A stretch of 64,000 bases of DNA from Pseudomonadota bacterium (GTDB taxonomy: Bacteria; Pseudomonadota; Alphaproteobacteria; Rhizobiales; Hyphomicrobiaceae), in assembly GCA_018242295.1 (NCBI GenBank), contig JAFECE010000007.1, positions 62,001 through 126,000 on the forward strand, given 5' to 3'. This document shows positions 42,571 through 59,434 of this stretch, one piece after another. The position numbers and the translations under genes are program-made. Numbering within the stretch: position 1 is the first letter of the stretch; every line of letters begins with the position of its first letter. The notes under the pieces were generated by a model. It was not told where the DNA came from. It saw only the letters and a list, made by a program, of their open reading frames with translations, and did not search any database.

Positions 42571-42955
42571 TCAATCGTTTCCCCCAAGGAACCCTTGAAC
42601 AACGGCAAGTCTCACCCGGCGCCCCCGCGGTGCGGACGAAAATCTGCCAGATAGGATGGGGTGATCGCTGCTTCTGGTCCCCTCGAAGCAAACGCTTGTA
42701 CCATCTTCCGTGCATTGGAGGTCTTCTGTCACGACAAATGGTCGCGATCTAATCCAAAGATTCAATAGTTAAATCGCCTGAATCAATTTCGCTGACTGCG
42801 GCGCCACGCGCCTCCAAAACAGCAAGCGCGTAGCGGCGTCAAAATGGCGGAGCCGAAGCTTCGCAACCGGGCCCTCGTGAAAAACCAGATCGCGAAAGAC
42901 TTCGACCCCACCTGAACATCAGGCGTGTTGGGCGCAACCTGACGTCGTCGTGTGC
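42571..42955. other. Gap between porin 1 and dmoA
   Basis: About 385 bp with only unsupported ORFs. It should carry the porin 1 promoter. I see no copy of the TetR-type operator found before porin 2, so the two porins are probably regulated differently. Confidence 0.4.
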
Positions 42956-44398: not shown

Positions 44399-44650
44399 CA
44401 CGTTTCCTCGTTTTTGCTTTTGCACGTTATCGAGACTTCCAATCGGCCAAGCTGCACGGACGTCATTTCCGATTTCTCCTGAAAGTCCGACCTGACCGCC
44501 CGCTTTCGCGGCCCGCATCAACCGATTTGCGGCACCCGATCAAAGCAGGCACCGACCACGTCTCTGTTGGGATTTCGATGGCTCGGATCTTCAGCCTTCT
44601 CTCCGACTCCCGGTAAACCCGAGAGTCGTTTGGATCAATAAGTCCATTAC

Positions 44651-44670
44651 GTGTACCGACCGGTCCACAT
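44651..44670. promoter_or_regulatory. TetR-type operator A (dmoA upstream region)
   Basis: GTGTACCGACCGGTCCACAT; its complement ATGTGGACCGGTCGGTACAC differs at only three or four positions from the site before the tetR gene (54853-54872). Near-perfect palindrome around ACCGGT. Control of dmoA is inferred. Confidence 0.65.
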
Positions 44671-44816
44671 AATCGCAAACGCGCGACAAACGCAAGTCGC
44701 ATTTCAAAAGCGCGCCGCGCCTGTAGCCAAATCTTTCGCGATCCCGCCAACTGGCAATGCCCCTGCACAATGCGATAGAGCACGAAAAATCATGCACGCA
44801 CGGGTCTCTCGCAGAA

Positions 44817-44990
44817 CGTTAAGCAGATCTGATTTCCGTGCAATTTGCATGGTTGGAACAGACGATCGAAAAAGGAAAAGCTGCCGGCGATTTCAAAAGG
44901 GATATCGACACCCGACAAGAGGCGCTCCGCGTACTCAGCTCCCAGCGGGAAGCAAGCATGGTCACCGATGCGTCGACGAGAAGAGCATCG
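44817..44990 (+). pseudogene. Remnant of a TetR-family regulator (C-terminal part)
   Basis: Plus-strand reading from about 44817 gives FAWLEQTIEKGKAAGDF, KRDIDTRQEALRVLSSQREASMV, which matches the ligand-domain end of TetR proteins (usual pattern ...EGQAAGEFRRDIDP..AALALLSSL.GA). An in-frame TAA stands just upstream and no helix-turn-helix can be found in the preceding 250 bp, so only a fragment remains. Placed between dmoA and porin 2. Confidence 0.55.
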
Positions 44991-45198
44991 TCGGGTCAAT
45001 TTTTGAGAGCACCCAGCCCTTTCCTGACAGCCAAAGACCTCCCCGCCTCCCCTGATCGGCTAGCCGCGCCAAGATTGTTCGGCCCTGTTACCGTAACGCC
45101 CCCACGCGTTGGCAATCCCAACTAATACCTTGACGCGCAATAAAGAATTCCTGCCAGACATCCTAACGCGCCGCGCCGTTTAAGGGACCGGAAAATAT

Positions 45199-45243
45199 AT
45201 ACCGGTCGGTCGTTATCGCAATTTAATTGTACCGTTCGGTCAG
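45199..45243. promoter_or_regulatory. TetR-type operators B and C upstream of porin 2
   Basis: ATACCGGTCGGTCG (45199-45212) and GTACCGTTCGGTCAG (45229-45243) are two copies of the same half-palindromic element. Corresponding positions are 30 bp apart (about three helical turns), and site C ends 45 bp before the porin ATG. Confidence 0.65.
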
Positions 45244-45288
45244 TTCGATATGTTGACGCGCCAAGGAGATATCGATTCGAGGGGAATA

Positions 45289-46566
45289 ATGAGAATGAAA
45301 AATAAGGCGTACATCGCCGTTGCGAGTTGCGTTGCGCTTCTGGGATATGCTGGCTCAACATCAACGCAAGCTGCCGATCTCGGTGGAAATTGTTGTGCGG
45401 ATCTCGAGGAGCGGATCGCCGAACTCGAAGCGACTGCGGCCCGCAAAGGCAATCGCAAAGTTTCGTTGACCATCTCCGGTTGGGTTGCCGAACAGGTCGT
45501 TCACTGGGACGATGGCGTCGAGTCCAACACCTACATCACCGGTCTCGGAACCGCCTTCGCGAGCAACTTCCACATCGTCGGCGAAGCGAAGATCAGCAAT
45601 GACGTCAAGGCCGGATACGTGCTTCACATCGAGGCAATCGACAGCGATGTCTATTCCACCAACGCAAATCGTGCGGATGGCCCGGGGCTGACAGGAAGCC
45701 CAAATTCAACACAAGTTCTCTATTCGTATTGGTATCTCAAGAGCGACTCGCTAGGACAGGTGAGCGTCGGTAAAATGTCCCAAGCCGACGATAACGTCGT
45801 CGTCTCTCTCGACAGCTCTGGAACGTTGGCAGCCGCCTATTGGGTCGGTTACGACGTTTTTGGATTCAACGTAAGAGGCAACTTTGCGCCGGGAGTATCG
45901 CTGAGTTGGGGCAATGCGTCCTCCTGCCGAGGATGGGGCGGTGGTCCTGGCGACTGTGATGGATTGCCCAGAAACGTGGTGCGCTATGATACTCCAGCTA
46001 TTGCGGGCTTTTCCGCTGCAGCCTCGTGGGGCGAAGACGACGAATGGGCTGTGCTGGGCCGCTACAATAATACCATTGGCAATGTGAAAATTTCTGCCGC
46101 CGTATCCTACGGCGAAACGAACGACCAGAACATCGCGCGGACCCAGGGTGGCACACTCAAGTATACCCAAGCGGGCCTCTATCTACAGCACATGCCGTCC
46201 GGCATCTTCGGTATAGGCGGTTACGGTCACTTGGATCAGACCGTCAACCCGATGAACAACCCCGCCACCGACACGTGGTATTTCAAGGGTGGCATTCGGT
46301 TGAACCTCACGCCCATTGGCGCCACAATTCCTTACGGCGAATATCTCGGCGCCAACAACAGTGCAATGATCACCGACAGTATCTCGGAAACGTCACAGGT
46401 GCTCAAAGGGTCGGGCACGACATGGTGGGGTGTCGGCGTCGTCCAAGAAATCGATGCGGCGGCGATGTCCCTATGGCTTCGATACCGCGATCACTCTGTG
46501 GATGTCCCCGGCGTCGACACGAAAGACATGACCACCGTCGTCGGCGGCGCAATGATCAATTTTTGA
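45289..46566 (+). CDS. Outer membrane porin (paralogue 2)
   Basis: 425 aa from the ATG at 45289, with GAGGGG upstream; the open frame to 45250 runs through the operator region and is not supported. Signal peptide ends at TQAA; then DLEERIAELEATAARKGNRK, a beta-barrel with the constriction-loop-like Cys pair SCRGWGGGPGDCD (also SCRGNGAGPADCD in paralogue 1) and a terminal Phe (GGAMINF). Preceded by two TetR-type operators, so it probably belongs to the methylated-sulfide regulon and admits the substrate. Followed by a strong terminator. Confidence 0.9.
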   Translation: MRMKNKAYIAVASCVALLGYAGSTSTQAADLGGNCCADLEERIAELEATAARKGNRKVSLTISGWVAEQVVHWDDGVESNTYITGLGTAFASNFHIVGEAKISNDVKAGYVLHIEAIDSDVYSTNANRADGPGLTGSPNSTQVLYSYWYLKSDSLGQVSVGKMSQADDNVVVSLDSSGTLAAAYWVGYDVFGFNVRGNFAPGVSLSWGNASSCRGWGGGPGDCDGLPRNVVRYDTPAIAGFSAAASWGEDDEWAVLGRYNNTIGNVKISAAVSYGETNDQNIARTQGGTLKYTQAGLYLQHMPSGIFGIGGYGHLDQTVNPMNNPATDTWYFKGGIRLNLTPIGATIPYGEYLGANNSAMITDSISETSQVLKGSGTTWWGVGVVQEIDAAAMSLWLRYRDHSVDVPGVDTKDMTTVVGGAMINF

Positions 46567-46604
46567 GTACAACCTAAACGTAAAAGCTACTGCTCCCTAA
46601 ACTG

Positions 46605-46635
46605 AACCGAGGCCGAAAGGTCTCGGTTTTTTCTT
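46605..46635 (+). terminator. Rho-independent terminator after porin 2
   Basis: AACCGAGGCC and GGTCTCGGTT form a 10-bp stem closed by a GAAA tetraloop (46615-46618), followed by TTTTCTTTG. Ends the porin transcript. Confidence 0.9.
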
Positions 46636-46773
46636 TGTGGTCTCGGAGCTCTGTCAGCTCACGTCAATGGCTGTAACCGAATCCCGTGCTGCGATACGGC
46701 AGGGTTTGCTAAGCGCGAAAGACTCGCACTTCACGCGGATATCTCTTGCGTCTGCTCGAATTTCACATAAGGT

Positions 46774-46811
46774 TGGACCGATCGATACAAACGAGTAGCC
46801 GATTGATCGGC
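46774..46811. promoter_or_regulatory. TetR-type operator D and adjacent palindrome before the FMN reductase gene
   Basis: TGGACCGATCGATAC (46774-46788) matches the operator core with one change. A further perfect palindrome, GCCGAT-TG-ATCGGC, lies at 46798-46811. Both precede the FMN reductase start (46840), so control of the FMN reductase-sfnG operon is inferred. Confidence 0.6.
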
Positions 46812-46839
46812 TCGATTGATGTCCCGGGAGCGACGCTTG

Positions 46840-47397
46840 ATGCCGACTATGGTCAAGATCAACGGAAGTCCGACACAACCCTCAAAAACAGGAATCTTGA
46901 TCAACGCAATCGGTGACGCGGTTGCTGGGAAGATGGCAATAAAGAGCGAAACCATCACGTTAAGCGAGGTCGCACCGGAAATTATGTGCGGCCTTACGCG
47001 GCCGGACGTTACCAAGGCTGGGGAACAACTCCTTCAATTGGCCGAGCGCGCTGACCTTTTGGTCATTGGAACGCCCGTTTATCGCGCCGCCTACACCGGC
47101 GTTTTGAAGCATTTCTTCGATCTTGTCGACCGCGACGCCATGCGCAACCGCAAAGCTATCGTATGCGCTACAGGCGGTAGCTCGATGCATGCATTGGTCA
47201 TCGAGCATCAATTGCGGCCGCTTATGGGTTTCTTTGCCGTACAGACGGTGACAACCGGACTTTACGGGTTGAGCGAGGACTTTGCAGACGGCGCCGTGGC
47301 AAGCCCTTCTCTCAAGGATCGGATCGAGCGTGCCGCAAGCGAAGCGGTCGAGATCCTCACGAGTTCAATAGTGCGCCGTCCGCAATTGGTGCAGTAG
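46840..47397 (+). CDS. NAD(P)H-dependent FMN reductase (MsuE/SfnE-like)
   Basis: 185 aa from the ATG at 46840, with GGGAG 9 nt upstream; TTG 46816 and ATG 46819 are in frame. Flavodoxin-like fold: phosphate loop INGSPTQPSKTG, then LVIGTPVYRAAYTGVLKHFFDL and ATGGSSMHALVIEHQLRPLMGFF, as in the reductase partners of two-component sulfonate/sulfone monooxygenases. It would supply FMNH2 to the downstream SfnG and perhaps to DmoA. First gene of the operon with sfnG (45-bp gap). Confidence 0.87.
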   Translation: MPTMVKINGSPTQPSKTGILINAIGDAVAGKMAIKSETITLSEVAPEIMCGLTRPDVTKAGEQLLQLAERADLLVIGTPVYRAAYTGVLKHFFDLVDRDAMRNRKAIVCATGGSSMHALVIEHQLRPLMGFFAVQTVTTGLYGLSEDFADGAVASPSLKDRIERAASEAVEILTSSIVRRPQLVQ

Positions 47398-47442
47398 CTG
47401 CGCGCGCGGGTATTTTTCGCTTCGGTTACCAAGAGGCCGCAG

Positions 47443-48558
47443 ATGGGAACGAAAGCACAAAATCATGTGAAATTCGCTCATTGGATTCCCAATGTGAGTG
47501 GAGGACTTGTCGTCAGCAAAATCCCCCAGCGCACCGACTGGGGGCTTCAGTACAACGTGAAGCTGGCAAAGATCGCGGAGGAGGTCGGCTTCGAGTATGC
47601 ACTGACGCAGATCCGTTTCATGGGCAGTTATGGTGCCGAGTACCAGCACGATTCACTGATCTTCTCGACTGCATTGTTGGCTAACACTGAATCCATCAAC
47701 ATCGTCACCGGCATCCTTCCCGGGATGTTCCATCCTGGCGTGATCGCGAAGCATGGGGCCACTGCCGACCAGATCTTCAACGGCCGATGGGCAATCAACG
47801 TTGTAAGCGGGTGGTATCGCCGCGAATACGATGCCCTGGGTGTGCAATGGCTTGAGCACGACGAGCGCTATGTTCGCTCGCAGGAGTTCATCGAAATTCT
47901 TCGCGGTGCGTGGAGCGATGACGATTTCTCCTATCGTGGCAAGTACTGGCAGATTGACGGTTACACTTTAAAGCCGAAGCCGTTGGTAATCCCGGGCAGG
48001 CCGATGCCTGAGATATTTCAGGGCGGAAATTCCCTCGCCGCTCAACGCATGGCGGCTGCCGTTTCTGACTGGTACTTCATGAACGGCAACTCTTTGGAAG
48101 GCTTCAAAGAGCAGATCAACAACGTCTCTAAAATGGCGGCTGCCCGCGGACGGAAAGTCAAATTTATCGCGAATGCATTCGTCATCGCGCGCGATACGGA
48201 AGCGGAAGCGAAGTCAGAGCTTGAGCGCATCATTCGGAGCGCCGACACCGAAGCTGTCGAAAAATTCCGCGTGGCCGTGAAGGAAGCCGGCCAATCGACC
48301 AAAGAGGGCAAAGGCATGTGGGCAAAATCCACGAGCCGCGATTTGGTCCAGTACAACGATGGCTTCAAGACCAATCTGATTGGCACCCCCGAACAGATCG
48401 CATCTCAAATCCATGAACTCGGCAGAATTGGCGTCGACGCGATTCTTTGCGGATTTCTGCATTTTCATGAGGAAACGCGCTTCTTCGGCGAACGGGTCAT
48501 TCCGCTCGTTCGAGAGATGGAGGACGCTGCCAGCGTGAAGAGGTCAGCGAATGGATAA
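47443..48558 (+). CDS. sfnG: Dimethylsulfone monooxygenase (SfnG-like)
   Basis: 371 aa, start with AGAGG 6 nt upstream. Luciferase-like monooxygenase close to SsuD/SfnG: FAHWIPNVSGGLVVSKIPQ, IRFMGSYGAEYQHDSL, GILPGMFHPGVIAKHGATADQI, GRWAINVVSGWYRREYDALG and EIFQGGNSLAAQRMAA. The opening residues are typical of SfnG. With FMNH2 and O2 it cleaves dimethylsulfone to methanesulfinate and formaldehyde. Paired with an FMN reductase gene upstream and riboflavin genes downstream. Confidence 0.9.
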   Translation: MGTKAQNHVKFAHWIPNVSGGLVVSKIPQRTDWGLQYNVKLAKIAEEVGFEYALTQIRFMGSYGAEYQHDSLIFSTALLANTESINIVTGILPGMFHPGVIAKHGATADQIFNGRWAINVVSGWYRREYDALGVQWLEHDERYVRSQEFIEILRGAWSDDDFSYRGKYWQIDGYTLKPKPLVIPGRPMPEIFQGGNSLAAQRMAAAVSDWYFMNGNSLEGFKEQINNVSKMAAARGRKVKFIANAFVIARDTEAEAKSELERIIRSADTEAVEKFRVAVKEAGQSTKEGKGMWAKSTSRDLVQYNDGFKTNLIGTPEQIASQIHELGRIGVDAILCGFLHFHEETRFFGERVIPLVREMEDAASVKRSANG

Positions 48559-48667
48559 GGTGTAGGGAGCACTTTGCGGCTGTTCGGGCCGCACCTTTCC
48601 AAATAAGCATAAAATAAGCCCTGCAGTCGGCACGCCGGCTTCCGGGATTGGGGAAGGAACGGAAGCT

Positions 48668-49789
48668 ATGAACGTCATGTTCACCAACCACGATTCGGAA
48701 AGCCCCTCTTGGGGTATCAGCTCAGCAGAAGAAATAATCGAAGAGGCCAGAGCTGGCCGCTGCTTCATTCTCGTCGATGATGAGGGTCGCGAGAACGAGG
48801 GCGACATTGTCATCCCCGCGCAGTTCGCAACCGCCAACGTTATTAATTTCATGGCACGTCACGCACGCGGCCTCATTTGCCTCGCGCTAACCGCCCAACG
48901 CGTGTCACATCTCAAATTGAGCGCCATGGCTCAATCGAGCACTACGGGCTTGCAAACTGCGTTCACATTATCGATTGAAGCAAGGACCGGAGTGACGACG
49001 GGCATATCGGCAGCAGACCGAGCCAGGACTGTGGCCGTCGCCATCAATCCGGAGAGCTCATCCGGCGATATCGTAACGCCCGGGCACATTTTTCCCCTGA
49101 TTGCGCGCGAGGGCGGAACGCTGGTTAGAGCCGGCCATACGGAAGCGGCTGTCGATGTTGCACGCATGGCGGGCCTCAATCCCTCGGGCGTCATTTGCGA
49201 AGTGATGAACGACGACGGCACGATGGCGCGCTTGCCGGACCTCGTGCGGTTCGCGCTTCAGCATGAAATAAAGCTCGGCACAATCGCCGATCTGATCGCC
49301 TATAGGCTTCGCCATGAGCGCCTGATCACCACGGTCGCCACCTCGGCAATCCATCATCCGAGCTTCGGAGAATGGGAACTCGTGATCTACCGCGATACTG
49401 TCGACGGATCAGAACACGCAGTCCTCGTCAAAGGCAATGTGACGAAGCCAGGTCCCATTCCCGTCTGTCTTCATAGGTCTGACCTCATAAGCGATGTCAT
49501 CCTCTCTCGCGACGGCGAGGGCCTAAGCAGCGCCATGTTCAAAATCATGCGCAAAGGAAGAGGCGTTATCGTTCTCCTCAATGATGGGCGCCAGGGCGCC
49601 CTCTCTGAGCGAATTCGGAAAAGCAGCCCGCACTCCAGGCCGGGACCGCAGCTCCGAGAATACGGAATTGGTGCACAGATCCTGGTCGATCTCGGCGTGA
49701 AGGAAATGATCGTGCTCTCGAGCCTAGAGCAAACGCTTGTCGGCATCGAGGGATACGGCCTCACCGTCGTGAGACAAGAGCCCCTGTGA
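48668..49789 (+). CDS. ribB: RibBA-type 3,4-dihydroxy-2-butanone 4-phosphate synthase with degenerate GTP cyclohydrolase II domain
   Basis: 373 aa. Residues about 15-215 are DHBP synthase (ILVDDEGRENEGDIVIPAQ, FMARHARGLICLAL, TPGHIFPLIAREGGTLVRAGHTEAAVD). The C-terminal 150 residues follow the GTP cyclohydrolase II fold but lack the zinc cysteines (PVCLHRSDLISDVIL replaces CLTGD...RCDC), so that half cannot be active in the usual way. It makes the C4 precursor of riboflavin. A separate, intact ribA stands at 53507-54175. Probably part of the operon running from 46840. Confidence 0.92.
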   Translation: MNVMFTNHDSESPSWGISSAEEIIEEARAGRCFILVDDEGRENEGDIVIPAQFATANVINFMARHARGLICLALTAQRVSHLKLSAMAQSSTTGLQTAFTLSIEARTGVTTGISAADRARTVAVAINPESSSGDIVTPGHIFPLIAREGGTLVRAGHTEAAVDVARMAGLNPSGVICEVMNDDGTMARLPDLVRFALQHEIKLGTIADLIAYRLRHERLITTVATSAIHHPSFGEWELVIYRDTVDGSEHAVLVKGNVTKPGPIPVCLHRSDLISDVILSRDGEGLSSAMFKIMRKGRGVIVLLNDGRQGALSERIRKSSPHSRPGPQLREYGIGAQILVDLGVKEMIVLSSLEQTLVGIEGYGLTVVRQEPL

Positions 49790-49854
49790 ACCATTCGTGC
49801 CCAAGCGGCATGCCTTCTCCAACAAAACAAATGGAAATAGGAGCGCCTTGAACT

Positions 49855-50394
49855 ATGCAGATGGGACCGATTCGTTCGGCGATGAGTAATTTTGGGAAAG
49901 CGCTACGCGGCAAACCATCGGCGGTCGACGCCGACACGTTTCGCTCGGTCATGCGCCAGTTGGCGGGCTGCGTTACGGTTATATCAACGGAGGATGCCGG
50001 ATCCCTCTACGGCTTCACCGCGACAGCCGTGTGCAGCGTTTGCGCGGAGCCGCCAACCATCCTCATCGCCGTCAACCGCACCGCGCGTACGTATCCTCAT
50101 ATCGACCGCAAAGGTGCGTACGCGGTCAATATCCTTGCGGACGGACAAAAGCATATCGCCGAACATTTCGCGGGGAAAAAGGACAATCAGTTCGATACTG
50201 TTGAGCACACCATCGGCGCGATGGGCGTTCCCTTGATAACGGGTGCGGCAGCGCATCTCGAATGCAATGTGGATCAGAAGATATCGATCGGAACACACAC
50301 GCTGTTTGTTGGAAGGGTCATTGGTTCTGGAGTAGATGCTCTCAAGCCTCTGATTTATCACGACGCCAAATACGGCTTGGTCTCTCACATTTGA
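49855..50394 (+). CDS. Flavin reductase (NtaB/HpaC-like; candidate DmoB)
   Basis: 179 aa. Split-barrel flavin reductase: FRSVMRQLAGCVTVIST, YGFTATAVCSVCAEPPTILIAVNR, GAYAVNILADGQKHIAEHFAGK and HTLFVGRVIGSG, ending with a DAKYGLV motif. The 19-20 kDa size suits the small subunit of two-component monooxygenases such as DmoAB, so it may serve DmoA. Lies between ribBA and ribF. Confidence 0.87.
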   Translation: MQMGPIRSAMSNFGKALRGKPSAVDADTFRSVMRQLAGCVTVISTEDAGSLYGFTATAVCSVCAEPPTILIAVNRTARTYPHIDRKGAYAVNILADGQKHIAEHFAGKKDNQFDTVEHTIGAMGVPLITGAAAHLECNVDQKISIGTHTLFVGRVIGSGVDALKPLIYHDAKYGLVSHI

Positions 50395-50446
50395 GCAAGC
50401 TTTTGACGTGGTTCCGATAGGCAGCCAACGCGAGCAATGTCGGTAA

Positions 50447-51487
50447 ATGCAAATCGGAATATTGAGCTCGACCTTGATTGGGCGAGGGTCGAGCAAACCC
50501 ACACTAACGTTGCAGGATCTAGTTGACCTACCCGAGCAGGTTCGGGGAGGTTACGTCGTTATTGGCAATTTTGACGGTGTCCATCTCGGACACCAGCATA
50601 TCGTGCAGCGCGCATCCAACCTCGCAAAGATCGATTCGGCGAGGCTGATCGCGATAACGTTCGATCCGCATCCGCGCAGTTTCCTCGAGCCGCACCAAAC
50701 CTTACTTCCGCTGACCGATCAGGACGAGAAAGCTTATCTGCTGAGAAAGGCGGGCGTAGACGAGGTTATCGTACTGAACTTCGACTCGTGTCTCGCCTCA
50801 CAATCAGCGAAAGCCTTTGTCGAAGAGGTGCTGGTCAAACAATTCGAGGCAAGAGGCATTGTCGCCAGCCGCAATTTCCGGTTCGGTCTCAACCGTGCGG
50901 GAGACGCGTCACAGCTCGCGTCCATAGGACCTGGATTGGGACTGGTGGTCGAACTCATACCTCCGCAGGTCGACTACGATACCGAAGAACCGATCAGCTC
51001 CACTGCCGTGCGTGCAAAACTCGCGCTCGGTGAGATAAAGGCAGCGAACCGGATGCTCGGCCGCAGATGGACCATCGAAGGCGAAGTCGTTCACGGCGAC
51101 AAGCGAGGTAGAGAACTCGGATTTCCCACGGCAAACATAGCCACGGGCTTTGGTTCGCGCTTTTGCTTCGGAATCTATGCGGTTCGCGTGCTTGTGGATG
51201 ACACAATAGCGAAGGGCGTTGCGTGTTACGGCACCCGTCCTCAGTTCGATGACGGGGCGCCTCGACTTGAGGTGCATATCTTGGACTTCAATGGCGACCT
51301 ATATGGCAAGCAGATGATCGTTGAGTTCGTGGCGTTCCTCCGGCCCGAGCGAACGTTCGTCAACGTAGACGCATTGAAGGAGCAGATTATTCGCGATTGC
51401 AATCTCGCCAGCAGCTACATCGGCTCTGACCTTGAGCACTCAACGTTGGATATGGACTTCGCGCACCACTTCCCAACGCTGCGCTGA
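50447..51487 (+). CDS. ribF: Bifunctional riboflavin kinase / FAD synthetase (RibF)
   Basis: 346 aa. FAD synthetase half with GNFDGVHLGHQHIV and TFDPHPRSFL, and the second nucleotidyl motif EPISSTAVRAKLALG. Riboflavin kinase half with GRELGFPTANIA and VACYGTRPQFDDGAPRLEVHILDF. Converts riboflavin to FMN and FAD. Its place after a flavin reductase and before soxC suggests extra FMN supply for the flavin-dependent monooxygenases of this island. Confidence 0.92.
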   Translation: MQIGILSSTLIGRGSSKPTLTLQDLVDLPEQVRGGYVVIGNFDGVHLGHQHIVQRASNLAKIDSARLIAITFDPHPRSFLEPHQTLLPLTDQDEKAYLLRKAGVDEVIVLNFDSCLASQSAKAFVEEVLVKQFEARGIVASRNFRFGLNRAGDASQLASIGPGLGLVVELIPPQVDYDTEEPISSTAVRAKLALGEIKAANRMLGRRWTIEGEVVHGDKRGRELGFPTANIATGFGSRFCFGIYAVRVLVDDTIAKGVACYGTRPQFDDGAPRLEVHILDFNGDLYGKQMIVEFVAFLRPERTFVNVDALKEQIIRDCNLASSYIGSDLEHSTLDMDFAHHFPTLR

Positions 51488-51554
51488 CGCACATTTAGCA
51501 CTCTCGAATGTGACGCTCATCTCTTCGAGCAGTGGGTTAAACGTGGACTTTCTT

Positions 51555-51572
51555 GTATCGACTGATATATAC
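51555..51572. promoter_or_regulatory. Possible TetR-type operator E before soxC
   Basis: GTATCGACTGATATATAC agrees with GTATGGACCGGTCGATAC (site G) at 13 of 18 positions. It ends 26 bp before the soxC ATG. The match is weaker than the others and could be chance or a promoter -10 region. Confidence 0.35.
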
Positions 51573-51598
51573 AGCACGGAGTTTTCACAGGTTGTGAG

Positions 51599-52945
51599 AT
51601 GGCAAGCGTGACCCGACAAAAAGAAGACGACTCAGCAGCAAAGCCATCGAAAGATGACTGCCCCTGTCGCGAGGGAATGAAACCGCGCCTTGATTACAAT
51701 CGCCGTGGCTTTCTTCTCTCTGCCATGGCGGCATCGACGGCGGGAGCCGTAACGGCCACAGGGGCGGAAGCCGAGAAAATGAAGGCTCCACCAGGTGCAA
51801 CGCTGTATGACGTGCCCGAAGATCCCACCAAAGAAATGGCACGAGGCGTTCATGAAGACGGTGGCTACGGAACGCGCTCACAATTCGAAACCGAAACGCG
51901 CATCAAGGCTGAACGTCCTCTTGACGGCACGTCATGGACGTACACGCCATTAGCGTCGACCATAGGCAATCTCACGCCATCAGGCCTGCACTTCGAACGT
52001 CACCACGGCGGTATTCCCACGATCGACCCATCGCGCCACTCGCTTTACGTCCATGGACTTGTCGATCAGGCAAAGAAATTTTCCGTCGCAGACATCAAGA
52101 GCCTGCCATCGATCACCCGTCGCTTCTTCATTGAGTGTTCCGGAAACACTTTGGCTGAATGGGCAAAACCAACGGGAAAGAACGTCCAGGTCACGCATGG
52201 ACTGTTAAGCACATCTGAGTGGACAGGCGTACCGTTTGCGACGCTGGCCCGCCAAGTCGGATTGAAGGAGAATGCGGCCTGGGTGCTCGCGGAAGGGGCT
52301 GATGCTGCTGTCATGACGCGCAGTATCCCCATCGACAAGCTGATGACCGACGCGCTCATTGCTTACGGCCAGAACGGCGAATCGCTTCGGCCTGAGCAGG
52401 GTTACCCGCTTCGCCTTATTCTTCCTGGCTTTGAAGGAAATACACAGATCAAATGGTTGCGCCGGCTTCAGGTCAGCGACCGTCCTTTCATGACCCATGA
52501 AGAGACTGCCACCTACACGGATTTGCTAAAGGACGGGCGAGCGAAACAATTCACATTGGCTATGGATCCCAAGTCGGTGATCACATTCCCATCGGGCGAG
52601 ATGATACTTCCCACACCGGGATATTATCTCATCAGGGGATTCGCCTGGACTGGACGTGGGCGCGTCAATGCCGTCGACATTTCCCTCGATGGCGGAAAGT
52701 CATGGGCGCCGGCACGCCTCGACAACGATCCAGAGCCCATGTCCACGGTACGCTTTAGCTATCCGTGGTTCTGGGACGGAAAGCCTGCAATCCTACAGAG
52801 CCGATGCATTGATGACGCCGGCAACGTCCAACCCTCGCGCAAGGAGCTGATCGCAGTGCGCGGTCTCAACTCCGTCTACCATTATAATGCAATTCAGAGC
52901 TGGGCCGTCGCGTCCGACGGTAGTGTTTCGAATGTCCACGTTTAG
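51599..52945 (+). CDS. soxC: SoxC-type sulfane/sulfite dehydrogenase molybdopterin subunit
   Basis: 448 aa with a long polar N-terminus, then a twin-arginine signal (NRRGFLLSAMAASTAGAV, residues 34-51). Sulfite-oxidase fold with the molybdenum-ligand Cys180 in FIECSGNTLAEW, then GYPLRLILPGFEGNTQIKWLRRL and VDISLDGGKSWAPARLD. In Paracoccus SoxC works with the cytochrome SoxD on sulfane sulfur bound to SoxYZ. No soxXAYZB genes are present here, so it may act on free sulfite or another sulfur compound from DMS breakdown. Confidence 0.88.
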   Translation: MASVTRQKEDDSAAKPSKDDCPCREGMKPRLDYNRRGFLLSAMAASTAGAVTATGAEAEKMKAPPGATLYDVPEDPTKEMARGVHEDGGYGTRSQFETETRIKAERPLDGTSWTYTPLASTIGNLTPSGLHFERHHGGIPTIDPSRHSLYVHGLVDQAKKFSVADIKSLPSITRRFFIECSGNTLAEWAKPTGKNVQVTHGLLSTSEWTGVPFATLARQVGLKENAAWVLAEGADAAVMTRSIPIDKLMTDALIAYGQNGESLRPEQGYPLRLILPGFEGNTQIKWLRRLQVSDRPFMTHEETATYTDLLKDGRAKQFTLAMDPKSVITFPSGEMILPTPGYYLIRGFAWTGRGRVNAVDISLDGGKSWAPARLDNDPEPMSTVRFSYPWFWDGKPAILQSRCIDDAGNVQPSRKELIAVRGLNSVYHYNAIQSWAVASDGSVSNVHV

Positions 52946-53510
52946 GCACGTCTTCGTCACTGTTCTTTTCATCCTGCTGTCCGCGACGGGAGCCCAATCG
53001 GATGCTCTCGGAATAGACGTTGGCACGCCGGTTGGCGTCAATGAACTCGCGAAGTTCTACGCGATCCCTCCAGACGGCACGGGGCTTCCCCCCGGGAAAG
53101 GCACAGCAGCCGAAGGGAAAGAGCTATTTGCCCAACGCTGCGCCCATTGTCATGGGGAGCATTTGGAGGGTCTCAAAGAAGTCGGCGGACCCAAGCTCAT
53201 CGGTGGTCGTGGAACACTCACAAGCGCCGCGCCCGTGAAGACCGTCGAGAGCTATTGGCCCTACGCCACCACGTTGTTCGACTACGTCTGGCGGACAATG
53301 CCATTCGACCAGCCGGGTTCTCTCACGCCCGACGAGGTCTATTCGCTCTCCGCCTATATCCTGTCTGCTGGCCACGTCATCGACGAAAAAGAGGTCTTGG
53401 ATGCGCAATCACTTCGAAAAGTCGTGATGCCGAACGCTAATGGCTTTTTTAGCGCGTTAGGACCCGAACTCGACATGTATCGCCTCGCGCCAGGAGAACC
53501 CAAAAAATGA
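52932..53510 (+). CDS. soxD: SoxD-like monohaem cytochrome c
   Basis: 192 aa from the ATG at 52932, overlapping the soxC stop by 14 bp. Signal peptide (MSTFRHVFVTVLFILLSATGAQS) and one haem site CAHCH near residue 73. SoxD signatures such as YWPYATTLFDYVWRTMPF and LTPDEVYSLSAYIL are clear. The long Paracoccus SoxD carries two haems in about 380 residues; this is the short one-haem form. Electron acceptor of SoxC. Confidence 0.88.
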   Translation: MSTFRHVFVTVLFILLSATGAQSDALGIDVGTPVGVNELAKFYAIPPDGTGLPPGKGTAAEGKELFAQRCAHCHGEHLEGLKEVGGPKLIGGRGTLTSAAPVKTVESYWPYATTLFDYVWRTMPFDQPGSLTPDEVYSLSAYILSAGHVIDEKEVLDAQSLRKVVMPNANGFFSALGPELDMYRLAPGEPKK

Positions 53511-54175
53511 ACGCATATTCGCGAGGGCGCACTCGCGAGAAACTCACGACCGAGGTTCGTTTGGAGCTATCCGCGAACGAGCCAATGGAACGGATCGCCA
53601 CCACTATGTTGCCTATTGAGTTACTCGGACAAGAGTACGCTCTGCACGCTCACGCATTCCAATCGATCGATCAGATCGAACAACTGATCGTCCTCGTCAA
53701 TAGAAGCGAGGCGACGAGCGCTATCCCGTTGGTCAGAATTCATTCCGGATGCCTCACAGGCGATATCTTTCACTCATTGCGCTGCGACTGTCACCAGCAG
53801 CTCCAAAGCGCACTGCGGATGATCACTGACGCCCCGTTCGGGGCGCTAGTCTATATCCCTTACCAGGAGGGGCGCGGAATTGGCCTCTTTAAGAAGATCC
53901 AAGCCTACGCCCTTCAGGATCAGGGATTGGATACGGTCGATGCAAATCTTGCAGTGGGCTCGCCGGTTGACGCACGAGATTATTCACTTGCTAGCCGTGC
54001 ACTGCTGGATCTGGGGATCACCGAAATCAGGTTGTTGTCAAACAATCCCGATAAGCTGAAGGCGCTAAAGCTCCACGGCATCGACGTCGTTGAGCGCATT
54101 GCGATGAAATTCGAACCCAACCGACACAATGCGCGCTACCTCGCGACGAAACGGCACCGTTTGGCGCACGACTAG
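53507..54175 (+). CDS. ribA: GTP cyclohydrolase II (RibA)
   Basis: 222 aa. The zinc site CLTGDIFHSLRCDC is complete and is followed by YIPYQEGRGIGLFKKIQAYALQDQG, VDANLAVGSPVDARDYSLAS and RLLSNNPDKLKAL, as in active RibA. Opens GTP to start riboflavin synthesis. The start overlaps the soxD stop as ATGA, so a flavin gene is translationally coupled to a sulfur-oxidation pair. Compensates for the dead second domain of ribBA. Confidence 0.93.
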   Translation: MNAYSRGRTREKLTTEVRLELSANEPMERIATTMLPIELLGQEYALHAHAFQSIDQIEQLIVLVNRSEATSAIPLVRIHSGCLTGDIFHSLRCDCHQQLQSALRMITDAPFGALVYIPYQEGRGIGLFKKIQAYALQDQGLDTVDANLAVGSPVDARDYSLASRALLDLGITEIRLLSNNPDKLKALKLHGIDVVERIAMKFEPNRHNARYLATKRHRLAHD

Positions 54176-54213
54176 TAAATCCCTCGTTGAATTGCGCACG
54201 AACCAAAGCTTTC

Positions 54214-54807
54214 TTACGGAGCCTGACGGTTCTTCGATTCAGCCATTGCCAGCGCCATGTCGGCGAAGACGTCGGCGATTTCGCGAGACGAACTCTTTCC
54301 AGACGGCGTAAGCCAAAGGAAGCTGTAGAAGTACATCCCAAGGATGCCTTTGATCGCAACGTTCGGTAAGGGCCGGAAAATACCCTTCTTTTCCCCTTCC
54401 CGGAAGGTATTGGTCCAAATGTCCTGGTAGGCCTGGTGTAGGTTTGAGACGATGCGATGCCGTTGGCCGGTGAGGCAGTCCGCTTCCCTGAAGCACACTG
54501 TCATCTCAGGCAGGTTGGCGAAAATCGTTGCCATGAGCTTGCGGCTCAGAAGGTAGATGCGTTTGCTCGGATCCGGCTCCGACTCCAAAGTGTCTCTGCC
54601 CGCGACCACCAAGTCTTCAATGTACCTGACCACGATGCTGAACAGCAGGTCTTCCTTGCTGCTGATGTGATAGTAAAGAGCCCCGCGGCCAAGGCCTACC
54701 GCTTCGCCAATCTCCGCGACGCCAACCGCCCTGTAGCCACGCGTGGCAAACAAGTCTGCGGCAATCTTCTGAATTCGTTCAAACTGAGGGCCCCCAGGCG
54801 CGGGCAT
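54214..54807 (-). CDS. TetR-family regulator of the methylated-sulfide island
   Basis: 197 aa from the ATG at 54807. The helix-turn-helix is IQKIAADLFATRGYRAVGVAEIGEAVGLGRGALYYHISSKEDLLF; the ligand domain follows. The frame is open to 54954, but the longer start would place a strong operator (54853-54870) inside the gene, so the shorter start is preferred. That operator recurs at several promoters nearby. The ligand could be DMS, a sulfone or a CoA ester; the sequence does not tell. Convergent with ribA. Confidence 0.9.
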   Translation of the reverse strand: MPAPGGPQFERIQKIAADLFATRGYRAVGVAEIGEAVGLGRGALYYHISSKEDLLFSIVVRYIEDLVVAGRDTLESEPDPSKRIYLLSRKLMATIFANLPEMTVCFREADCLTGQRHRIVSNLHQAYQDIWTNTFREGEKKGIFRPLPNVAIKGILGMYFYSFLWLTPSGKSSSREIADVFADMALAMAESKNRQAP

Positions 54808-54852
54808 TTTCGCATTCCGTGCAAATCGATCGCTGGTACCAGACCATTCTGT

Positions 54853-54872
54853 GTGTGGACTAGTCGGTACAC
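54853..54872. promoter_or_regulatory. TetR-type operator F (autoregulation)
   Basis: GTGTGGACTAGTCGGTACAC, a near-perfect palindrome around ACTAGT, lies 46 bp upstream of the tetR start. It matches site A closely. TetR regulators commonly bind their own promoter, so this copy links the element to this regulator. Confidence 0.7.
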
Positions 54873-55261
54873 TACTGCTATGTGTCAAAGACGCCCGCTT
54901 TCGTCCAGCCTGTGAGGGTGCCTTCAAATCTGAACGTGACAATAAAGCCTCCAAGAAATGCCCCGGACAGTAGCGCCGATTTGCTGACCGGAAAATCTAA
55001 TAACAGCATACAATCGAGAACTTTGCGACGACCGAAATGACGCTTTTGTGCGACAATCCAAAAAGCCGATGGAATCGGCGACCGTCGATTTTCCCACTTC
55101 TTATCTTCGTCGTCGCTCCAAGCCGATTCTTCTCCACATCATTTCGAGAACATCTGAAATGCAGAGCGCGTTGATTTCTCGCGCCGCAGCATATCCGCAA
55201 ACTTTAATTCACCTCGGATCCGTTGCTCATCAATTCAAAAAAATCAGAGGGAGTAAGCGCC
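54873..55261. other. Divergent region between tetR and the MaoC-like gene
   Basis: About 390 bp. No gene seen; ORFs here are short. TGACCGGAAAATCTA near 54985 resembles GACCGGAAAATATA upstream of porin 2 (45185) and may be a weak extra regulator site. Confidence 0.3.
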
Positions 55262-55738
55262 GTGACCACAACCGTGAAATCGATCTGGGACGATACCGTC
55301 AAGGGCAAGCCCGAGGTTGGCTCTAGCGCTCGCAGATCCCGCAAGACGACCGCTGAGGACATCGTACGCTTTTCCGAAATGACAGGCGACTATAATCCCC
55401 TCCACTATGATGCCACCTTGGCCGAAGCCTCGGTTTTCGGACGCATCATCGTGCAAGGCGGTGTAACTTCAGGTCTTTTGAACGCGATCGTAGCCGAAGA
55501 TCTTCCTGGTCCGGGAACGGTCTTTTTGGGCGTGAACTGGCGGTTCATCCGCGCCGTTGGAATTGACGAAACGATCACCGCCGAGGTTCAGGTGACCTCG
55601 GTGCGGAACGATAAGCCTATCTGCGAGCTCTCCACCAACATCTACGATGCCGAGGGCAATGCCTGCCTCTCGGGCACAGCGACGGTGTATGTCACACCCC
55701 TGCGCAGCCTGATGTCCAAACTAAAAAAGCAATCCTGA
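55262..55738 (+). CDS. MaoC-like hot-dog hydratase/dehydratase
   Basis: 158 aa from a GTG at 55262, with GGGAG 8 nt upstream. R-hydratase motif FSEMTGDYNPLHYDATLAEASVFGRIIVQGG has the catalytic Asp and His. Such enzymes hydrate enoyl-CoA esters; a role in sulfur-compound metabolism is not established. Lies 13 bp before an MFS gene, so the two are one operon. Confidence 0.87.
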   Translation: MTTTVKSIWDDTVKGKPEVGSSARRSRKTTAEDIVRFSEMTGDYNPLHYDATLAEASVFGRIIVQGGVTSGLLNAIVAEDLPGPGTVFLGVNWRFIRAVGIDETITAEVQVTSVRNDKPICELSTNIYDAEGNACLSGTATVYVTPLRSLMSKLKKQS

Positions 55739-55751
55739 TCGAGGAATACAG

Positions 55752-56990
55752 ATGCTGGCACCCGCACAGGCTGATGCGCAGGCAAAAGAGAATTCGCGAT
55801 GGGCGATGCTCGGAATTTTGAGCTTGGCGATCGTCCTCTCGATGACAACCTGGTTTTCGGCAACCGCAATCCTCTCCGAACTTCGCGAAGTTTGGTCCCT
55901 AGATGGTGCTTCAATTGCGTGGCTGACGAATGCCGTGCAAATCGGCTTCGTCGTCGGCGCTCTTGGTGCCAGCATCTTCAACCTGCCCGACATCATTGCA
56001 CCGCGGACGCTGATGTCGGTGTCCGCTGTCCTCGCTGCGGCAGCGAACGTCGGCCTCCTCATCGCTCCCAACGCCGAGACAGCGATGTTTTTGCGTTTCG
56101 TCACCGGCCTCGCGCTTGCTGGCGTCTATCCGCCGGCTCTGAAGCTCATTTCCACGTGGTTCGTTCAAGGACGCGGTCTAGCCCTCGGCTGCGTGATCGC
56201 CGCTCTGACGTTGGGTTCGGCATTTCCGCATTTACTGCGAGCGCTGACATCGAATCTCAATTGGAAGCTTGTCGTTTGCTCGACATCGGCCATGACGGTC
56301 ATCGGTGCGGCATTGATGGCGCGTTTCGCGGTGGAAGGACCATATCCGTTCTCTCGGACGACTTTCGATCTTCGGAAGATCGGTCAGGTGTTGCGCGATA
56401 AGCCCGTCATGTTGGCGAACATCGGATACTTCGGTCACATGTGGGAACTTTACGCGATGTGGGGTTGGTTTCTCGCCTTCACTCAAGCGAGCTGGGAAGC
56501 ACGCGGACTCATTTCACCCAGCGCATCCCTAATTACGTTTGCCGTCATCGCTTCCGGCACCGTTGGCTGCATACTCGGTGGATTGATGGCCGACTCCATT
56601 GGCCGAACCGCAACGACGTCAATCATGATGGCGCTCTCCGGCCTTTGCTGCATCCTAATCGGATTCACGTTCGACGCTCCCCTTTGGGTATTCCTGCTTA
56701 TTTCGATCCTTTGGGGTATCACCGTCATTGGCGACTCGGCGCAATTCGCGGCCGCCGTCACCGAAGTCGGGAATTCGGCATTCATCGGAACCGCGTTGGC
56801 GCTTCAGCTGGGATTAGGATTTGCACTGACGGTCGTCGCCATTCGCGTGATGCCCGTTCTCGCTGACTATCTTGGCGGCTGGCAATGGGCTTTCGTTGCC
56901 CTCGTTCCCGGTCCCATCATCGGAACCATAGCTATGCTAGCCCTGCGACGTCTCCCGGAGTCCGTCAAAATCGGTCAAGGGCGGCGATAG
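55752..56990 (+). CDS. MFS transporter
   Basis: 412 aa, about 12 helices. It has WLTNAVQIGFVVGALGAS in TM2, RFVTGLALAGVYPPALKLISTWF in TM4 and LMADSIGRTATTS between TM8 and TM9. It resembles CynX/nitrate-type or organic anion MFS carriers; the substrate is unknown. Co-transcribed with the MaoC-like gene. Its 3' end overlaps the convergent EamA gene by 26 bp. Confidence 0.87.
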   Translation: MLAPAQADAQAKENSRWAMLGILSLAIVLSMTTWFSATAILSELREVWSLDGASIAWLTNAVQIGFVVGALGASIFNLPDIIAPRTLMSVSAVLAAAANVGLLIAPNAETAMFLRFVTGLALAGVYPPALKLISTWFVQGRGLALGCVIAALTLGSAFPHLLRALTSNLNWKLVVCSTSAMTVIGAALMARFAVEGPYPFSRTTFDLRKIGQVLRDKPVMLANIGYFGHMWELYAMWGWFLAFTQASWEARGLISPSASLITFAVIASGTVGCILGGLMADSIGRTATTSIMMALSGLCCILIGFTFDAPLWVFLLISILWGITVIGDSAQFAAAVTEVGNSAFIGTALALQLGLGFALTVVAIRVMPVLADYLGGWQWAFVALVPGPIIGTIAMLALRRLPESVKIGQGRR

Positions 56991-58032
56991 GTTTTCGCGG
57001 CGGGGCTAGGTCGGATTGAACTGGCTGCTTCTGCTCCACAATGAGCGAGCGCTGATCATTGCTCGCTCTAGCCGCAACTCGATATCTTAGCACTATCGTT
57101 GCCGCAACGGATCCCAACAAGAAGACAATGCCAATTCCGATCGGCAACGAACTTTGAGAAAATCGTCCGTAGTGCCATCCCAGACCGAACACTAAAGGCA
57201 GCAAGAGCACCACGCTTTGTCCGCTCAGCGCGGGGGGAAGATAGGTCTGCGCTGTGTTCCACGCATACAGGGAAAGAAGAGAAGCCCCGACAGCCAGAAA
57301 GAATCCCCAGCCCGCCAATGCAAGCGTCGCGGCACCCACGGGATGCGTGAACAAACCAAACTCATTTGCAACCGGAGAAAACGGCAGCACCACAATGAGA
57401 AGAGGCAGCGCCCCTGCCCCCGCAATCAACGTTAGCAGTGTCCAGTCCTCGGTCGGTATCGCGGAGTGCCTGAGCAGGGCACGTTTGTTCAACACCTGAT
57501 AGCTGCTCCACATCGCCAGCGCGATAAACGCCGACGCGAGTCCCAAATTGCCCCGCAAATCCCGCAGCGAAAACTGACCCGCTTGAATTTGCGCTCCCAC
57601 GATGATCACAACACCGACGATCGCCAGCAAGACCGGCCATACGATCGATCGCCACGGAAACTCTTTGTAGATGAGATTGTTCGCAACCATCGTCACGATC
57701 GCGATCATCCCGATGACTGAAACTGTGATGACTTCCGATGTGTATTTGATCGCGGTTGCAAGGAAGAAGAAATAACCTGTAAATCCAAGAAATCCCAGCA
57801 AGCCGGCACTAAGCCAATCTTGGTAGCACCGATTGACGAGAAGTCTCCTTGCATTGCCGCTGAGCACCGCAACCAACAGGGCGAGCGCGGTTGAAAATAA
57901 GAAACGCACAATCGCCAAATCTGCGGTTCCGTACGGCGCGATGAAGTCCGTGTGGATGTAGAGCGTTGACCAGAGCGTGCACGCGGCGAGCGCGAAGACC
58001 AACCCCTTAGTCACTTTGCGAGCGTTCGACAT
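56965..58032 (-). CDS. DMT superfamily (EamA) transporter
   Basis: 355 aa with ten helices in two EamA halves (residues about 10-145 and 160-300). Signs are TLWSTLYIHTDFIAPYGTADLAIVRFLFSTALALL and YQVLNKRALL. Start ATG at 58032 with AAGG upstream. Family members export amino acids, metabolites or drugs. An operator-like site 93 bp upstream suggests that it belongs to the TetR regulon. Its end overlaps the MFS gene. Confidence 0.87.
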   Translation of the reverse strand: MSNARKVTKGLVFALAACTLWSTLYIHTDFIAPYGTADLAIVRFLFSTALALLVAVLSGNARRLLVNRCYQDWLSAGLLGFLGFTGYFFFLATAIKYTSEVITVSVIGMIAIVTMVANNLIYKEFPWRSIVWPVLLAIVGVVIIVGAQIQAGQFSLRDLRGNLGLASAFIALAMWSSYQVLNKRALLRHSAIPTEDWTLLTLIAGAGALPLLIVVLPFSPVANEFGLFTHPVGAATLALAGWGFFLAVGASLLSLYAWNTAQTYLPPALSGQSVVLLLPLVFGLGWHYGRFSQSSLPIGIGIVFLLGSVAATIVLRYRVAARASNDQRSLIVEQKQPVQSDLAPPRKPIAALDRF

Positions 58033-58124
58033 TTCTTACCTTATGCGGACGTTGTGCGCAGCATTGCGCATAGCGGGACTCAGAGTTGCCAATTCCGCTT
58101 GCTTCCTGGAAGCGGTCGTATAAA

Positions 58125-58142
58125 GTATGGACCGGTCGATAC
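58125..58142. promoter_or_regulatory. TetR-type operator G (EamA/membrane-protein promoter region)
   Basis: GTATGGACCGGTCGATAC, a nearly perfect palindrome around ACCGGT with GTAT/ATAC ends. It lies between the divergent EamA gene and the polytopic membrane protein at 58367, so it could control either or both. Confidence 0.65.
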
Positions 58143-58366
58143 AAAGATTCCTCATTAGAACGACGACCAGGAAACGCAAATGAACGCACCGTCGCCGCGC
58201 ACCGTCCCCAGCTAACAGGGGAAAAGCTGCCAAGTTGATCTGGGACATGTCAGTCGTGAGACGTTGCGTCGAGCGGCGGACTTCTCGCGCCCGGATTCCG
58301 CTTGGCTAAGTCGGCACAGCTTTGAATGGCGCTAGGCACGAAAAAAAAATAACACGGAGGATGTGC

Positions 58367-59434
58367 ATGACTGCAACAATATCTCAATCCGTTGCGCCCT
58401 TACGAGTCAGTGAAGCCGTACGAGGCTTCCTGTGGATCTACGGCCTATCTATCGTTTCGTGCTTTCTAGTCAATCATTGGGTGATCGCCAATCCCATCGG
58501 ACCGTGGACTGGCGAGGATATCGAGAAGTCATTCTGGCTCGACAATGTCAGCTGGCAGATCTTTTCAGCATGGTGGGCCTGCTTCTTTGTGGTTTGCAGT
58601 TTTTGGCCCTTCAACTTCATAGAAAACAAGAACATCCGAGGAACCACCGTTGTCATCGCTTCCTGGATTCTGGGTTGGTGGAGTGCCAAGCTCATTTTCC
58701 TGATCGGTCCCGGGGCGGACGGCATTTTTCCTCTCGTGGGAACGACGTGGTTCCTTCTTGCCTTCTTCTGCTTCGCAGGCGGTAACTTTCTTGTTTCGAA
58801 ATTCCCGCCACATCGGCAAGTCTACATCTATCTCCTTCTATTCACTGGCCTCACCTTCCTGATCACACATTCGGCAGTGAAGTGGGTTCCCGCGTGGTGG
58901 TTTCCATTCTTGCTCGTGGGACTTTCGACTGGAACCCTCACGTTTCTCACCAGAGGCTTGGGTCAACCTGCGCGCGCGATCGTAATCATGGCGATCCTCT
59001 TCGCGGCCGCATGCCTGTGCTTCCAGATTTCCGCTCTCGCTGGTTTCTGGGATTTCAGCAAGTCGCCGATATCGTCTTTCTGGACCATGGGTCATTTCAC
59101 CGACGATAGCTTCTGGCTTCTCTGCTTCATGACCGCAACATCGATAAACTATGCGATGCCGATCATCACTCACAATTGGCCATTCACGATGATCTCCATG
59201 CCCTTGGGAGGTCTGCTTGCCTGTTTGACGTACCTCGTCCTCGACGTGATCGTCGCCGGTTTGCTCGTCAAGTTGGTCGGACCCGTGTTCTCGAGCATGC
59301 AGGAGCTGCTGACCTATGCCTACATGGGCGTGAACTGGTCGCTGGTCATTCCATTGGTCTTCGGGATTGGGCTTCAACAGCCATACCTCTGGAAGGGACA
59401 AAAGACGCCCGGCGAATGGGATGATGTTGCTTGA
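58367..59434 (+). CDS. Polytopic membrane protein of unknown function
   Basis: 355 aa from the ATG at 58367, with GGAGG 6 nt upstream. About nine or ten helices, very rich in Trp and Phe (WLDNVSWQIFSAWWACFFVVCSFWPF, SAVKWVPAWWFPFLLVG). His and Asp in WTMGHFTDDSFW and ITHNWPF are possible functional residues. It is not an MFS, DMT or ABC protein and I cannot place it. Neighbours and operator G suggest a link to methylated-sulfide metabolism: uptake, sensing or a membrane enzyme. A strong terminator follows. Confidence 0.75.
   Translation: MTATISQSVAPLRVSEAVRGFLWIYGLSIVSCFLVNHWVIANPIGPWTGEDIEKSFWLDNVSWQIFSAWWACFFVVCSFWPFNFIENKNIRGTTVVIASWILGWWSAKLIFLIGPGADGIFPLVGTTWFLLAFFCFAGGNFLVSKFPPHRQVYIYLLLFTGLTFLITHSAVKWVPAWWFPFLLVGLSTGTLTFLTRGLGQPARAIVIMAILFAAACLCFQISALAGFWDFSKSPISSFWTMGHFTDDSFWLLCFMTATSINYAMPIITHNWPFTMISMPLGGLLACLTYLVLDVIVAGLLVKLVGPVFSSMQELLTYAYMGVNWSLVIPLVFGIGLQQPYLWKGQKTPGEWDDVA

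Follow-up and report, generated by a model that had tools for sequence, protein, structure and literature searches.

How a bacterium that carries the genes for dimethyl-sulfide oxidation switches these genes on and off is the question raised by the locus described here. The window, i.e. the whole stretch of 64,000 nucleotides that was analysed (contig JAFECE010000007.1 of assembly GCA_018242295.1, positions 62,001 to 126,000), comes from a Hyphomicrobium bacterium (Hyphomicrobiaceae). It contains a cluster comprising dmoA, which encodes a dimethyl-sulfide monooxygenase, sfnG, which encodes a dimethylsulfone monooxygenase, and tetR, which encodes a regulator of the TetR family. An earlier note had proposed that near-palindromic sites shared by dmoA, a porin gene (porin 2), sfnG, an EamA transporter gene and tetR make this cluster a single TetR regulon, and all of these sites are found at the window positions that it had assigned to them. 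We consider it likely, with considerable confidence, that the cluster is one TetR regulon, in which the TetR protein would bind the sites, repress by steric block and be released by a metabolite. From the sites, their conservation, their co-occurrence with tetR and the promoter geometry, all read from the sequence, we infer TetR as the binder, repression as its mode of action and a ligand that releases it.

A shared operator in the dmoA cluster

The operator is a 16-bp quasi-palindrome with the half-sites TGKAYCGR and YCGRTMCA, which describes the window sites better than an 18-mer does. The 18-mer, with up to three mismatches, matches the 64-kb window seven times against 1.81 expected, and none of 100 shuffles reaches seven. 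The 16-bp pattern, which was written from the window's own sites, is present without mismatch at 44652, 46774 and 58128, with two mismatches at 54856 and 51554, and with three at 45198 and 45228. In the organism's own genome (G000; 4.05 Mb, 11 contigs), the exact pattern occurs at three places, all within the window cluster, and one mismatch adds a single further place, C4:138444. The 12 exact places in 22 Hyphomicrobium genomes all lie in the dmoA clusters of G000, G020, G004 and G003. With up to one mismatch, 53 places are observed in these genomes versus 19 for the control. Five genomes exhibit both tetR and a full-length dmoA, and 17 of their 22 places at this threshold lie in the cluster; for 8 of the 31 places outside these five genomes, tblastn with the window proteins gave only one weak match, to a short-chain dehydrogenase.

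The cross-genome tests consisted of a matrix of relatives' sites applied to the window and a matrix of the window's seven sites applied to relatives. G020 was excluded from both matrix tests, and from the tetR codon analysis described below, because its TetR is near-identical to that of the own genome. The relatives' matrix was built from 27 sites of five relatives, hand-picked among matches at orthologous positions, with the own sites excluded. Its top five sites in the 64-kb window are 44652 (score 24.3), 46774 (24.2), 58128 (23.0), 54856 (18.5) and 51554 (18.3), whereas the best score among 100 shuffles, 17.2, is below all five. With the own-site matrix, the zones upstream of dmoA, msuE (the first gene of the sfnG group), soxC, tetR and a conserved membrane-protein gene all beat the background in G004, G003 and G012 (0 of 345–353 background stretches as good in each case). 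No background stretch equalled the zones of dmoA, msuE, tetR and the membrane gene in G144 either (0 of 347), nor those of dmoA, msuE and the MFS transporter gene in G209 (0 of 340). Porin 2 is weak in G144, with 4 of 347 background stretches as good, and no site was found with this matrix at the MFS gene in G012 or at maoC in G003. Three zones overlap the site of a neighbouring gene, and their scores are therefore not independent: porin 2 in G004 and in G003 (dmoA operator, within the divergent gap that the two genes share) and maoC in G004 (tetR site).

Besides the own genome, TetR orthologs with 80–99% identity are present in G020, G004, G003, G018 and G012. In the clusters of G020, G004, G003 and G012, sites precede five genes (dmoA, porin 2, msuE, soxC, the membrane gene) and are also found at tetR; the comparison of promoters with related clusters confirms sites at orthologous positions in four other species. 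The porin 2 sites in these four genomes are imperfect (two to three mismatches). As judged by eye from the alignments, most sites stand out as conserved blocks within promoters that have otherwise diverged. Where the gene order has changed, the sites move with the genes: in G144, which belongs to another genus of the same family, dmoA is placed after ribF, the membrane gene, followed by porin 2, is found at the other end, and both of the relocated genes, dmoA and the membrane gene, carry an exact site. G209, from another family, exhibits one-mismatch sites at dmoA, msuE and the MFS gene, and G328 a two-mismatch site before dmoA. Among 397 genomes of the order, dmoA (E-value ≤ 1e-200) was found in 7 and TetR (E-value ≤ 1e-30) in 9, including all 7. 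Among 385 genomes sampled from the class, DmoA (E-value ≤ 1e-200) and TetR (E-value ≤ 1e-40) were found in the own genome only.

Promoters, the regulator gene and competing readings

The promoter elements were read by eye. A CTTG box is observed 22–33 nt before the operator at 20 of the 22 promoters of dmoA, msuE and the membrane gene (27–30 nt at 16); the two exceptions, both with GTTG forms, are msuE in G209 and the membrane gene in G004. This box is likely the -35 element which, at the usual spacing, would leave the -10 element abutting or overlapping the operator. In the promoters of dmoA, msuE and the membrane gene, the operator starts at or just behind a -10-like element. The soxC operator occupies the spacer that separates a TGGACT-like (-35-like) from a TACATA-like (-10-like) box in most of five genomes. 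Both layouts would suit repression by block, since a repressor bound at or behind the -10 element, or in the -35/-10 spacer, would block RNA polymerase. We propose that a TetR dimer would bind the 16-bp TGKAYCGRYCGRTMCA at dmoA, porin 2, the msuE-sfnG-rib group, soxC, the membrane gene and its own gene, that bound TetR would block RNA polymerase, and that a metabolite from dimethyl-sulfide or dimethylsulfone use would release TetR.

The tetR gene (54214–54942, minus strand) encodes a protein with TetR_N and TetR_C_24 domains (PF00440, 48.4 bits; PF17932, 65.4 bits; both above the cut-off). Its structure model exhibits a TetR fold, with a predicted local distance difference test (pLDDT) value of at least 90 for 155 of 242 residues and with a disordered N-terminal extension (residues 1–49). 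The gene likely starts at the TTG at 54942, preceded by GGAGG. In six genomes the open frame runs from the TetR domain to a TTG preceded by GGAGG, with insertions and deletions in multiples of three. An operator, TGTACCGACTAGTCCA in the tetR sense (54856–54871, minus strand; two mismatches), corresponds to codons 24–29 of this likely frame. The sites had all been described as intergenic, and this one as lying 46 bp before the TetR gene. It lies instead inside the likely tetR coding sequence, and the 46 bp separate it from an internal ATG, not from the likely TTG start. The internal ATG would allow a short TetR form, and a TTGACA-like box is present before the operator in G000, G020 and G004 (CTTGACC in G003). 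A dimer bound here, about 70 bp behind the likely start codon, would either be a roadblock or mask an internal promoter. Autoregulation, suggested in the earlier note, is plausible, although the site is inside the likely coding sequence and none was found near tetR in G209.

Outside the operator, the extension varies at all codon positions (rates 0.479, 0.354 and 0.566 for the three positions; five genomes), which suggests that the extension is loosely constrained as a protein. At codons 25–30, by contrast, pairwise differences among the five genomes amount to 8 of 60 at first positions, 0 of 60 at second positions and 0 of 60 at third positions. Third-position changes are as few in only 3 of 222 five-codon windows along tetR, all of which overlap the operator. 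Frozen third positions in such a fast-changing stretch speak for a constraint on the DNA.

The sites could also be read by another TetR paralogue, or by several, the TetR of the cluster being a bystander or a sharer. There is a precedent for one operator type with more than one TetR per genome: SbtR binds the sites of PfmR, a regulator discussed below (excerpts of PMC7022988). In addition, a look-alike site is located just upstream of a different TetR gene in the own genome. We nevertheless regard this explanation as unlikely, as the cluster TetR is present in every sampled genome with a near-full-length dmoA, its gene contains a frozen site, and exact sites occur only in genomes with the cluster TetR. 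It is about equally improbable that TetR is an activator, which would recruit the polymerase when the substrate is present. A study on a TetR-family regulator of a biodesulfurization operon reportedly found it to act as an activator, whereas the positions of the operators at dmoA, msuE, the membrane gene and soxC, overlapping or following a -10-like element or within the -35/-10 spacer, suit repression. That chance or base composition made a GC-rich palindrome turn up in gaps would fit the count of 38 places in the own genome at up to two mismatches, against 20 with the reversed control, but this explanation is practically eliminated by the confinement of exact sites to the clusters, the scores above all shuffles and the orthologous positions in several species.

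Several observations nevertheless weigh against a single regulon read by the cluster TetR. The 38 places against 20 mean that the pattern alone is not specific at two mismatches; measured against chance frequency in the genome, only sites with zero or one mismatch concentrate in the cluster, while places with two mismatches are near background. The look-alike at C11:188355 indicates that the operator type is not private to the cluster TetR. The two porin 2 sites (scores 10.9 and 10.5) are at noise level, like the non-sites at 37342 (11.2) and 50280 (10.7). The peptide coded by the tetR site is also conserved, so a protein constraint is possible there. With the own-site matrix, no standout site was found in G144 at soxC or maoC, nor in G209 near four genes (soxC, tetR, the membrane gene and maoC); in these two genomes, some of the genes may be internal to operons. 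G018, a fragmented and incomplete genome, has TetR and a three-mismatch site, and no dmoA was found in it. Finally, the co-occurrence is partly due to physical linkage and inheritance. A single TetR regulon, as first claimed, is supported for dmoA, porin 2, the msuE-sfnG-flavin genes and soxC by conservation, co-occurrence and specificity at zero to one mismatch, with TetR as the presumed binder; EamA is not a constant target.

With regard to the rest of the own genome, the 38 places with up to two mismatches comprise 5 in the cluster, C4:138444 and 32 others. Among the 8 best-scoring of these 32, 6 lie inside an open reading frame (ORF) of at least 110 residues, 1 before another TetR gene and 1 between ORFs; the ORFs are mechanical, and at 1 of the 6 in-ORF places the frames are short and overlapping. 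No sulfur genes were recognised by eye beside these 8 places, a family search being made for one TetR only. A genome-wide regulon outside the cluster is unsupported by the surroundings of these 8 places.

The look-alike operator, TGTACCGAGCGGTACC, is found at L103:2355 (G000:C11:188355; score 17.2), 65 bp (start to start) before a TetR_C_13 gene. This gene is divergent from a gene that, by eye, resembles one for an efflux membrane-fusion protein.

Genes preceded by the operator

The dmoA gene (42956–44398, minus strand) belongs to the NtaA/DmoA subfamily of NCBIfam. Residues 4–476 of DmoA align with residues 1–474 of the solved dimethyl-sulfide monooxygenase (PDB code 6ak1; E-value 2.9e-276). 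Its operator, TGGACCGGTCGGTACA read towards dmoA (44652–44667, minus strand; no mismatch), exhibits the same letters in G020, G004 and G003, and close variants are present in G012, G144, G209 and G328. A second, weaker box is observed at 44631–44646, 21 bp from this operator, with counterparts in a copy of the promoter on contig C4 and in G020, and no clear counterpart in G004 and G012.

The site at C4:138444 (L034:9444) belongs to a second copy of the dmoA promoter. About 240 bp after dmoA, G020 has an isochorismatase-family gene, and a relative with 48% identity follows dmoA in G004. In the own genome, the isochorismatase-family gene has been lost from the window copy, whereas the C4 copy has lost dmoA except for the last codons, to which the promoter is joined. 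The operon is thus split, with dmoA and the isochorismatase-family gene at two loci (window 42788–42972; L034:9444) and the operator kept in both halves. A second gene group beside the isochorismatase gene (L034:10651–14896) encodes two monooxygenases, one DmoA-like (40%) and the other SfnG-like (28%), and includes two ribB/ribBA-like genes. A dmoA remnant without approximately the first 111 residues and with a broken frame is present at L091 (G016:C5 near 53572); that genome has no TetR ortholog, and no site with up to three mismatches was found in the 3.8 kb read there.

Two porins flank dmoA, i.e. porin 2 (45289–46566, plus strand) and a porin at 41290–42570, which are about 49–50% identical (tblastn, 49.1–50.2%). 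The latter matches Porin_4, while porin 2 has no Pfam match. Porin 2 is preceded by two weak operators 30 bp apart (45198–45213 and 45228–45243, plus strand), each with three mismatches. The first aligns with imperfect boxes in G020, G004 and G003, and the second has aligned counterparts in G020 (two mismatches), G004 and G003. No site within three mismatches was found near the porin at 41290.

The operator at 46774–46789 (plus strand; no mismatch), with the same letters in G020, G004, G003 and G144, precedes a group of genes (46840–51487, plus strand) comprising msuE for a flavin mononucleotide (FMN) reductase, sfnG, ribBA, a flavin reductase-like gene and ribF. As judged from their strand and spacing, the genes from msuE to ribF probably form one operon. 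SfnG exceeds the cut-off of its equivalog model (564.4 bits versus 382.95), whereas MsuE is below that of its model (186.7 bits versus 212.5). The ribBA gene was assigned by Pfam, and ribF and the flavin reductase-like gene were named by eye from their translations.

The next group (51599–54175, plus strand) comprises soxC for a sulfite dehydrogenase (TIGR04555, above the cut-off), a cytochrome c gene recognised by eye from a CXXCH motif and a gene for GTP cyclohydrolase II (GTP_cyclohydro2, by Pfam). Its operator, at 51554–51569 (plus strand), had been classed as a weaker site. It does have two mismatches here, but it is real and not marginal given its score of 18.3 and the single mismatch in G020, G003 and G012 (two in G004). 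A maoC-like hydratase gene (Pfam MaoC) and an MFS transporter gene, with a weak match below the cut-off, are divergent from tetR (55262–56990, plus strand). The G209 MFS gene matches in two pieces (L081:7656–8800), from a draft error or a true break.

The operator at 58128–58143 (plus strand; no mismatch) is located before the gene for a conserved membrane protein (58367–59434, plus strand) and, where it is present, before a divergent gene for an EamA-family transporter (56965–58032, minus strand; Pfam EamA). The EamA gene, named as a target in the earlier note, is inconstant in the cluster: it is present in G020 and G003 and missing from the clusters retrieved for G004, G012 and G144, where the membrane gene remains and the site is kept (exact in G004 and G144, two mismatches in G012). 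This weakens EamA as a target. Because the site persists where EamA is absent, it mainly serves the membrane-protein gene. The membrane protein is 57–96% identical in six relatives, and has no sequence match in Pfam, NCBIfam or PDB. Its gene is present in 5 of the 22 Hyphomicrobium genomes, which are the same 5 with full-length dmoA and tetR. Its structure model is poor (mean pLDDT 46.9) and unusable for fold comparison. In G328, the matches of dmoA and of the membrane gene are each split in two (L083:13593–15013 and 16536–17572), from draft errors or true breaks.

Known relatives of the regulator and significance

The best fold match of TetR in PDB is PfmR (PDB code 3vpr; template-modelling score 0.88 by target length, E-value 1.7e-10). 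According to the excerpts of PMC7022988, PfmR (TTHB023) of Thermus thermophilus is a TetR repressor of phenylacetate and fatty-acid genes with the measured 16-letter consensus (a/c)Y(g/t)A(A/C)YGryCR(g/t)T(c/a)R(g/t), which is compatible with the present operator over the inner 12 positions. In many cases its sites overlap +1, double sites occur at two promoters, and its operon includes a MaoC-related gene (same excerpts). In contrast to PfmR, with which it shares about 26% identity, the cluster TetR would act on an operator with outer TG..CA and on genes for organosulfur oxidation, not on fatty-acid-type genes. PaaR of Burkholderia cenocepacia, compared here for its operator and not its protein, is a repressor of the TetR type with the operator ACCGACCGGTCGGT situated between -35 and -10 (excerpts of PMC2770484), as is the soxC operator here; unlike the present cluster, its regulon serves phenylacetate. 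The sites of the window and of its relatives agree with the published PfmR/PaaR-type sites, as excerpted, in an ACCGRYCGGT-like core.

SfnR and SfnR2 of Pseudomonas also control sfnG-type genes (dimethylsulfone, dimethyl-sulfide), but belong to another regulator class, with sigma54-dependent activation (cited in the excerpts of PMC13352529). No sigma54 activator of the SfnR type was found among the window proteins in family searches, which included no systematic scan for such an activator or for -24/-12 promoters. By fold comparison only, the next best matches of TetR are AibR (5k7z; solved with isovaleryl-coenzyme A (CoA) and operator DNA) and KstR2 of Mycobacterium tuberculosis (4w97). Both have 23–26% identity with the present TetR. 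KstR2 answers to a CoA thioester.

Distant TetR homologues (44–53% identity) are present in L067, L085 and L084. The best matrix scores in their 20-kb surroundings are 17.0, 19.4 and 18.3, respectively, 95% of resampled maxima being below 13.2, 13.1 and 15.1. In L067 the best site directly precedes tetR and in L085 it separates maoC from tetR, but in L084 it is about 8 kb away from tetR. The surroundings of L067 and L084 exhibit acetoacetate-CoA-ligase-like (below the ligase cut-off in L084), MaoC and MFS genes, and those of L085 exhibit genes for an AMP-binding enzyme, MaoC and MFS. As tetR is accompanied by maoC, MFS and CoA-ligase-type genes in these distant homologues, the TetR ligand could be a CoA thioester; in the window, the MaoC-like gene is the only acyl-CoA-type gene. 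A tentative and rather doubtful extension of this idea is that an ancestral TetR sensed an acyl-CoA and was recruited to dimethyl-sulfide use, and that the present TetR still senses a CoA thioester or a downstream metabolite rather than dimethyl sulfide, while regulating tetR itself by means of an operator that is also read as codons of a disordered N-terminal tail.

A literature search, judged by title and the start of the abstract among the matches listed, with most subscription papers outside its reach, revealed no paper linking a TetR to dmoA and no description of the control of DmoA-based dimethyl-sulfide oxidation in methylotrophs. The operator type is already known from PfmR of Thermus and PaaR of Burkholderia, and its use at a dmoA cluster is a new setting: the cluster TetR is a PfmR-like regulator put to work on organosulfur oxidation, and the repressor gene of the cluster very probably reads the switch site. 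Dimethyl sulfide is a climate-relevant gas. For studies of how its oxidation is controlled, the sites provide exact oligonucleotides, together with one named regulator gene and a regulon list for testing, and they link a membrane protein of no known family to dimethyl-sulfide use. They also offer a sensor part for dimethyl sulfide or its oxidation products.

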